Shown piece by piece: positions 55,502-58,426 of a DNA stretch of 64,000 nt (the stretch's first letter is position 1; every line of letters starts with the position of its first letter). A model generated the notes under the pieces. That model was not told where the DNA came from. It saw only the letters and a list, made by a program, of their open reading frames with translations, and did no database searches. Origin of the DNA: Pseudanabaena sp. Chao 1811 (lineage in GTDB: Bacteria; Cyanobacteriota; Cyanobacteriia; Pseudanabaenales; Pseudanabaenaceae); contig NZ_CP101416.1 of the NCBI RefSeq assembly GCF_027942295.1, positions 4,264,501 through 4,328,500 of the forward strand. The letters are read 5' to 3'. The translations under genes were made by a program, and so were the position numbers.

Positions 55502-55536
55502 ATATGTTTAGATGCAGTGCTTTGTAGTCAATATAC

Positions 55537-56325
55537 TCAAATCAGATCAGACTCCTGAAATTCTGCATAAATTGCACAACGGTTAGCTGCCGCAAATTCT
55601 GCACTATCGGCAAGAGCTTCTGCTAGGTATACTTTTAATTCATCAGCAATTTTTTGCCATTCTTGATTATCAGAGTTTTCAATAGCTGAACTCAAAATTT
55701 TGCTTAGTTCGCGTAAACTATTTAGCTTTTGTCGCCTAGATTCAGTCAGATCCTCTGAGTTCAGATCTAAGTAATCAATCGTGATTTTTCCTTTGGGATT
55801 TCCATCGATCGCATAGGCGTACTCAGCTCGAAAACCAATGAATTCTTGGGGATCTTCTTTGCCACAATCAATAAACAGAGGATTTTCTTTGGTAATACGT
55901 TGGTTGTGGTTTGTTGCCCGTTTAGTTGGGTCTTGTAGAGGAAATAGATTTTTCTTATGCCTTGAGTTACAGGAGGGGCATGAGAGATAGAGGTTTTCCC
56001 ATTGATAGGCTAACCAGTAGTACGCTGGATATTTTAATGGTTCACCTTTCGCTTGTTGATATGCTCCTTTAGGTCGAAAATGCTCGACATCGCCATTTTT
56101 ACCAATAATCCTTTCGCAGAAACAACACTTCTGATGCTGAGCCTTGATTAGGGCTTCTTTAACACTTTCATGGGCATAGATGGAACTAGCAAAATCAAAT
56201 TTCTCTTGGTTGGTTTCATAGGCGGATGGATTGAGAGAATATGCATCACAATGGGATTTACATTTTTGCTTGCCGTCTGTGGTTAATTTTTTGGGTGCTA
56301 TTTTAGGTTTGTGAATCCGAATCAC
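55537..56325 (-). CDS. ptuB: PtuB-like HNH endonuclease (Septu defence)
   Basis: A 262-residue HNH nuclease of the TIGR02646 type. Zinc Cys pairs C67xxC70 and C116xxC119 flank a core VEHFRPKGAYQ (general base His82) and WENLYLSCPSCNSRHKKN. The start is GTG at 56325, which overlaps the ptuA TGA in GTGA, so the two are translationally coupled. In known Septu systems PtuB cuts DNA under control of PtuA. Antiphage activity here is inference. No reverse transcriptase, which would make it a retron, is present. Confidence 0.85.
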   Translation of the reverse strand: MIRIHKPKIAPKKLTTDGKQKCKSHCDAYSLNPSAYETNQEKFDFASSIYAHESVKEALIKAQHQKCCFCERIIGKNGDVEHFRPKGAYQQAKGEPLKYPAYYWLAYQWENLYLSCPSCNSRHKKNLFPLQDPTKRATNHNQRITKENPLFIDCGKEDPQEFIGFRAEYAYAIDGNPKGKITIDYLDLNSEDLTESRRQKLNSLRELSKILSSAIENSDNQEWQKIADELKVYLAEALADSAEFAAANRCAIYAEFQESDLI

Positions 56326-57743
56326 TCAACTGCCTCCGTCACAGGTTTGTCTAATAATTTGGCGGCACGGCGAATGATGTCCATAGCTTTGATATCTTCG
56401 GAACTTTCTGCGGTTGGCAAAGTACCAATTTTTGCTTCTAATTCTTTTAGTTCGGCTCGATCGCTTGCAGTTAGTTTTGTTTTAGTGAGGATTTCTTTGC
56501 GACGTTGTAGTAAAGGTTCAATTTTCGCAGGTCGTGCCGATGGCATCTCAAAAACACTGGTCAGAACTTGATCAACGCGCCAATTTTCAATAATTTCAGG
56601 GTTATTGATAATCTTAACGCGATCGCCTTCTCTCTTTAACAAGACAATATTGGCATCCTGTGCGGCTTGTACTACGAGTGGACTATGGGCTGTAACAATA
56701 AATTGCGTATTTGGAAATCTCTCTGTCAGAAATTCCATTATTGTCCTTTGCCATTGTGGGTGCATATGCAAGTCGATCTCATCAACTAGTACAATCGCTG
56801 GCTCAGCAAGCGGATCTTCGCTATCGGGATAACGTTTAAATAGTCTCACTGCTAAATCGACCATCCAAGCGATCGTAGTTCGATATCCCAAGCCTAGGCT
56901 AGATAGTCTTATCCAACCAAAAGGTGTCAAAAACTGAGCTACTGGACGCTCATGATACTCGTCTAGGTCGATACGAATATCTTTTACGTCTGGCAAAATT
57001 TGTTTTAAAATTTCGATAATCTGTTTAAGTTCTTTTTTTAGGCGAGTGCGGGTTTTCCCAGTAGATGATTTAACTGCATAATCAGTTTGCAATAGCCATT
57101 CTTCTGCATTAATAAGTGATGTATCATCAGAAAAAAGGCTAGCTGAATGATAAGAGGTATTGCTATCACTTAGAGAAGTACTTCCTGTTTTTCTTGTTGC
57201 GCCATATCCATAGAAAATCGCCCCTTTTAATTCATTGCTAGATTTCTCAAGCTCAGAATCTATCACAATTGATACATAATCTTTTTGAATATCTAGATTC
57301 TTACCTGTCTTAAAAGAATTAAGTGTGATATTACTAGCAAAACTAACAGAAATTGCAGGAATTGTTTCACCTGTATGTGCCGCAATTCCTATTTCCTCCC
57401 AGATTTCTTCAAAATCATAAAAATTCCAAAGCATAGGCTGAAATTCTTTTACTTCTTCAAATTTTTCTACTCCATCTACTACAATTGGATACTCATACAT
57501 TTCCAGTCTCATTTCCATGCCAGCTAAGCAACGTAGAAGTGTAGTTTTCCCAACACCATTATTTCCTAAAATAACTGTCCACTGTGCGGGATGACCATCT
57601 TTATTCGATAGATTGAGTGTTTGCCGTTCCTTAAAGCAAAGAAGATCTTCTACTTCCATTGAAAGTAAATATACTGGAGGATCTTCATTTTTTGAAGCTG
57701 TAGGTTTACGTTTGGTTGTGGCTTTCTTTGGCTGATTGGTCAT
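56322..57743 (-). CDS. ptuA: PtuA-like AAA/ABC ATPase (Septu defence)
   Basis: A 473-residue ATPase. Walker A is GNNGVGKTTLLR near residue 60, an insert with a coiled, variable part lies at about 90-280, and Walker B is IVLVDEIDLHMHPQWQ near 330. A His-switch (TAHSPLVVQAA) follows, then a C-terminal part (QVLTSVFEMPSAR) typical of the PtuA group and of the ATPase of Ec78-type retrons. It should form a complex with the downstream HNH protein. The region before it is AT-rich. It could also be another nuclease-coupled AAA system. Confidence 0.85.
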   Translation of the reverse strand: MTNQPKKATTKRKPTASKNEDPPVYLLSMEVEDLLCFKERQTLNLSNKDGHPAQWTVILGNNGVGKTTLLRCLAGMEMRLEMYEYPIVVDGVEKFEEVKEFQPMLWNFYDFEEIWEEIGIAAHTGETIPAISVSFASNITLNSFKTGKNLDIQKDYVSIVIDSELEKSSNELKGAIFYGYGATRKTGSTSLSDSNTSYHSASLFSDDTSLINAEEWLLQTDYAVKSSTGKTRTRLKKELKQIIEILKQILPDVKDIRIDLDEYHERPVAQFLTPFGWIRLSSLGLGYRTTIAWMVDLAVRLFKRYPDSEDPLAEPAIVLVDEIDLHMHPQWQRTIMEFLTERFPNTQFIVTAHSPLVVQAAQDANIVLLKREGDRVKIINNPEIIENWRVDQVLTSVFEMPSARPAKIEPLLQRRKEILTKTKLTASDRAELKELEAKIGTLPTAESSEDIKAMDIIRRAAKLLDKPVTEAVE

Positions 57744-57860
57744 GACTTTTGCGTAAAAAGCCCTATGCGTGAGCTAACTATCTAGTATTGGTATACTAAC
57801 AGATTCTCGATCTAGTAGAAAATTTGCGATTTGCTAAATCTTAATAGGTTGACCAATAAA

Positions 57861-58079
57861 TTAACGCATCAAATAAGGCGATCGCTTATCTTGATCTTTA
57901 TTTGTTTGTTTGCAGATATTCGTTTCTGAGTAATAGACTAGCTCTATCTCTTCTTGAGAGAGAATAAATTCTAAATATAACTCTCCTAACCAATCGCGCA
58001 TTTTACTTAATCTAAAAAATAGTCGAAACTGAGATTCTGTTAACATTTTTTGAACCCTCTCTAACTGCACTGAGGTCAT
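57861..58079 (-). CDS. Small hypothetical protein (72 aa)
   Basis: A 72-residue reading frame upstream of ptuA on the same strand (118-base gap): MTSVQLERVQKMLTESQF start, a helix rich in aromatic residues, a charged C-terminus. Not recognised. It might be an accessory gene of the Septu pair or unrelated. The ATG is preceded by GGGAGGGAT, a fair ribosome site. Confidence 0.5.
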   Translation of the reverse strand: MTSVQLERVQKMLTESQFRLFFRLSKMRDWLGELYLEFILSQEEIELVYYSETNICKQTNKDQDKRSPYLMR

Positions 58080-58249: not shown

Positions 58250-58306
58250 GATTTTTTTTGAAAGGTTTAGAGCAGTATCCTATTTAGCATAAATTTCTGC
58301 TTTTAC

Positions 58307-58379
58307 CCCCCTTAATCCCCCCTTTGTAAGGGGGGAAACTCAAAGTCCTCCCCCATTGCAAGGGGGAGTTAGAGGGGGT
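58307..58379. repeat. Dispersed C-rich inverted repeat
   Basis: CCCCCCTTAATCCCCCCTTT...AAGGGGGGAAACTC and CCCCCATTGCAAGGGGGAG with TTAGAGGGGG, same type as 27082-27160. Confidence 0.75.
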
Positions 58380-58426
58380 AAAAACTTCTCAAACACGCTC
58401 TTAACCTTCGATAAAAATATAGGAAG

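Follow-up and report, generated by a model that had tools for sequence, protein, structure and literature searches.

The window is a stretch of 64,000 nucleotides from Pseudanabaena sp. Chao 1811 (contig NZ_CP101416.1, positions 4,264,501 to 4,328,500), whose genome (G000) is a single contig of 4.73 Mb. Two genes on its minus strand encode an ATPase and an HNH nuclease and share four bases, GTGA: ptuB starts with GTG at 56325, and the TGA stop codon of ptuA ends at 56322 (Table 1). A preliminary description of this DNA had reported the overlapping pair, an ATPase with Walker A, Walker B and His-switch motifs and a nuclease with two Cys pairs and a VEHFRPK sequence, and all of these are present.

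Table 1. Features of the ptuAB locus and its flank, in window coordinates
Feature	Position	Strand	Description	Basis
Whole insert	55505..57858		Insert relative to nearest relative G022	blastn breakpoints against L105, junction sequences
ptuB	55537..56325	-	HNH nuclease, two Cys pairs, 262 aa	PADLOC, model, profile
ptuA	56322..57743	-	ABC/SMC-type ATPase of Septu, 473 aa	PADLOC, AlphaFold model, conserved motifs
ptuA leader	57744..57828	-	About 85 bp, core 57774-57804; probable promoter/operator	
Extended -10-like TGTTAGTAT	57801-57793	-	Within ptuA leader	
72-aa ORF	57861-58079		Adjoins sppA	
Inverted repeat	58299-58385		C-rich/G-rich, CCCCCTTAATCCCCCC type	

PtuA contains a Walker A motif (GNNGVGKTT, with K66), a Walker B motif (IVLVDEID, with D321 and E322) and an H-loop (TAHSP, with H353), all of which are invariant among 51 relatives. 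PtuB has the Cys pairs C67/C70 and C116/C119, VEHFRPK with H82 and WENL with N111. Across 48-51 relatives from many phyla, the catalytic residues of the two proteins are either invariant or at least 90% conserved. The closest named matches to PtuA are from Pseudanabaena (90%, 74% and 62% identity), and PtuB follows PtuA in most relatives, including those from cyanobacteria, acidobacteria, myxobacteria and Bacteroidota, among others.

Profile searches identify the pair as PtuA and PtuB of Septu type I, as the preliminary description had proposed for Septu in general. PtuA matches the PADLOC PtuA1 model (PDLC00304) with 523 bits (E=1.8e-157) over residues 17-466, and PtuB matches PtuB1 (PDLC00339) with 307 bits (E=2.8e-92) over residues 1-253. 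All 51 relatives of PtuA match the same PADLOC model. TIGR02646 scores PtuB at 41.2 bits, below its curated cut-off of 52.15. Pfam assigns PtuA to AAA_21/AAA_15 and gives no match for PtuB.

The predicted structures agree with this assignment. The AlphaFold model of PtuB (pLDDT 95) matches solved PtuB chains with a probability of 1.00 and an E-value of 2.5e-6. The PtuA model is of moderate confidence (pLDDT 77) and matches the PtuA of retron-Eco7/Ec83 (E about 1e-18) as well as E. coli Septu PtuA from the PtuAB complex 8eea (E 6.8e-17), the identity to the latter being about 18% in the fold alignment. The window PtuB is too distant from the solved PtuB proteins to be detected with a single sequence. 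Its family profile, searched against the PDB, finds the PtuB proteins of Ec78, Ec83 and E. coli Septu, although the match to E. coli entry 8ee7 is only partial. In the alignment with Ec78 PtuB, H82 falls on the histidine of EHFRP and N111 on the asparagine of W-NL; the Ec78 protein lacks the second CxxC pair there, whereas the window PtuB has both. The pair thus resembles Septu type I in being a two-gene ATPase and HNH operon with the same gene order, full-length matches, the catalytic residues and no reverse transcriptase (RT), but it represents a cyanobacterial branch far from the studied E. coli systems (8eea and EcB88), with a genus-specific leader.

The gene pair is an accessory insert located between a DUF486 gene and the 72-aa gene, in the interval between prlC and sppA. 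PtuA occurs in 10 of the 26 genomes of the genus and in none of 12 other genomes of the family, while SppA is found in all 38. In the nearest relative (G022), PrlC and SppA are 99% identical to those of the window and the Septu pair is absent: the alignment of the two genomes breaks off after 55504 and resumes at 57859 (blastn, 95.5-95.7% identity). The accessory character suggested by the preliminary description is therefore borne out by the same interval in the closest relative, where another gene occupies the site. The product of that gene is a 1654-aa protein combining helicase domains of the RecQ and UvrD types; a version 84% identical is found in the same place in G018. In the genus it is restricted to these two genomes and G012, and is lacking from G000. 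Judged by the identity of the flanks, G018 branches outside G000 and G022, so the helicase gene probably occupied the site first and would have been replaced by Septu in the window lineage. The helicase proteins themselves (L105:660-5624 in G022 and L106:1380-6386 in G018, 1654-1668 aa) are patchily distributed in the genus, and by eye part of their N-terminal region looks like a DEDD exonuclease; the gene is possibly a defence gene in its own right.

Other relatives have yet other contents in this interval. G021 has a gap of only 51 bp between prlC and sppA, and G020 has a photolyase-related gene and a DUF4253 gene. At the junctions of the window insert, neither an integrase gene nor a target duplication was seen; searches for carriage elsewhere found nothing in plasmids, and the matches in phages were partial and weak. 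The preliminary description had also associated a small gene and a dispersed C-rich repeat with the insert. Both are indeed present, but they belong to the flank, since both also occur in a relative without Septu. The small gene, the 72-aa ORF, matches no known family and is kept in G022, G032 and G018 (88-99%). The C-rich repeat is part of the flank that G022 has in common with the window, and G018 lacks it; it is thus unrelated to the Septu insert.

Septu pairs are found at other sites within the genus. In G020, G015, G032 and the second copy of G012, the pair lies about 90-150 bp before the threonyl-tRNA synthetase gene, thrS, while in G011, G023 and G028 it is found beside a gene for an iron-sulphur protein resembling succinate dehydrogenase subunit B. 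The window PtuA is placed with two copies from the thrS site (support 100), and the thrS-site copy of G015 groups with a G012 copy from a different site. The PtuA phylogeny thus disagrees with the site of insertion, as expected for exchange between sites. The thrS location, in which Septu is directly upstream of the synthetase gene and in the same direction (L109:3288-5123, L004:8299-10119, L008:8270-10090 and L112:2224-4059), is curious in that some Septu systems cleave tRNA; it is probably an insertion site. In G012, a second ptuA is interrupted after about residue 78 by a transposase gene (L112:6265-7248), which is IS30-like by eye and for which Pfam gives HTH domains only; another pair in the same genome is intact.

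The cassette includes a conserved ptuA leader. Its mean identity among the ten genus copies is 85%. The adjoining 25 bp on the upstream side reach 47%, and the fourfold-degenerate sites of ptuA 57%, the amino acid identity being 65%. The leader core was found at ten places in the 26 genomes, always 31-32 bp upstream of the ptuA start, and in none of the genus genomes that lack ptuA. An invariant TG-N-TANNAT in the alignment would fit an extended -10 element. These sequence patterns are most simply read as a promoter overlapped by an operator, both moving along with the cassette, and the conservation of the leader hints that expression of Septu is under specific control. A more specific version, in which this Septu branch has in the leader a regulatory element of its own that switches the cassette on during infection, with the operator perhaps bound by PtuA or a host stress regulator, is a tentative idea and more doubtful than not. 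Two other candidates were rejected: a structured RNA, as the folding energy is no better than that of shuffled sequences (z -0.52) and there is little covariation, and a short upstream ORF with Tyr codons, whose frame (judged by eye) is not conserved and contains a stop in the G032 copy. The leader is the one detail of the locus that may be new.

The same ATPase and HNH folds are shared with the PtuAB effectors of type I-A retrons (Ec78/Eco7 and Ec83), and the pair could in principle be the effector half of such a retron, its RT and msr/msd having been lost or lying elsewhere. By sequence and by fold, PtuA is slightly nearer to the solved retron PtuA than to that of E. coli Septu, and PtuB likewise leans slightly towards retron PtuB. 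However, the PADLOC retron I-A models score only 168 bits for PtuA and 63.6 bits for PtuB, compared to 523 and 307 for the Septu models. The NCBIfam retron PtuB model NF041761 gives 54.8 bits, well under its curated cut-off of 150, and the Ec78 PtuA equivalog is likewise matched below its cut-off. A retron needs an RT and msDNA, which are absent here: the whole 4.73-Mb genome has zero RVT_1 (PF00078) matches, and Rfam found no retron RNA in the region, its sole matches being miRNA models hit by chance in the C-rich repeat. The relatives checked have no RT-like neighbour either. Clustering of neighbours at 61 loci showed only genus-level neighbours and no gene common to the whole family, and of seven neighbouring ORFs with a YxDD-like string, the six compared with Pfam (all except a 1222-aa ORF in L052) are not RTs. 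The retron explanation is thus already largely refuted and must be considered very unlikely, which upholds the stand-alone Septu favoured by the preliminary description.

Nor do other explanations of the pair fare better. Membership of a different ATPase-nuclease defence family that resembles Septu, such as MADS, OLD/Gabija or another AAA_21 system, might be suggested by the AAA_21/AAA_15 matches of PtuA and a weak match to MADS3, but the latter amounts to 31.8 bits against 523 for PtuA1, and PADLOC, profile and fold all identify the HNH partner as PtuB, making this the least probable of the alternatives. The location between housekeeping genes and the strong conservation of the leader might instead point to a core DNA-repair ATPase and nuclease of the genus with no role in defence. 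This is highly improbable: 16 of the 26 genus genomes lack the pair, as do all 12 genomes searched in the rest of the family, the nearest relative has a different gene in this position, a copy in another genome is broken by a transposase-like gene, and occurrence at one and the same site in every relative was sought without success. That interrupted sister copy in G012 also raises the prospect that the window pair is an inactive remnant, for which there is equally little room, as both ORFs are full length, no catalytic residue is missing and the conserved leader is in place.

The preferred reading, to which we assign a probability of roughly 85%, is that the leader, ptuA and ptuB make up a stand-alone, retron-free Septu type I defence cassette inserted in the chromosome and working, by homology, through restraint and release of PtuB by PtuA. 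The two-gene Septu EcB88 of E. coli loses immunity when its Walker or HNH residues are mutated, and it cleaves tRNA-Tyr (PMC13096335). PtuAB of retron-Eco7 depletes tRNA-Tyr. A review gives the PtuA-PtuB complex of Septu a 6:2 composition and names degradation of phage DNA as its activity (PMC12948488). The window pair should follow the same plan by analogy: ATP-bound PtuA oligomers would hold and restrain PtuB, a phage-related signal would release or activate the HNH nuclease, and PtuB would then cut nucleic acid, either tRNA or DNA, after infection. Such cleavage would halt the production of phage, and the infected cell would probably pay for this in growth. Because PtuA is only about 18% identical to that of E. 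coli Septu in the structural alignment, the substrate and trigger are not transferable from the tested systems.

As a Septu system, the pair is well supported but ordinary, the leader and the exchange at this one site being minor points of interest. The prlC-sppA interval is a single site that holds different cassettes in closely related genomes. The pair adds a clean, retron-free cyanobacterial Septu that is far removed from the E. coli systems, for which the substrate is debated (tRNA-Tyr or DNA), and by virtue of this distance it could be used to ask whether Septu systems in general cleave tRNA.
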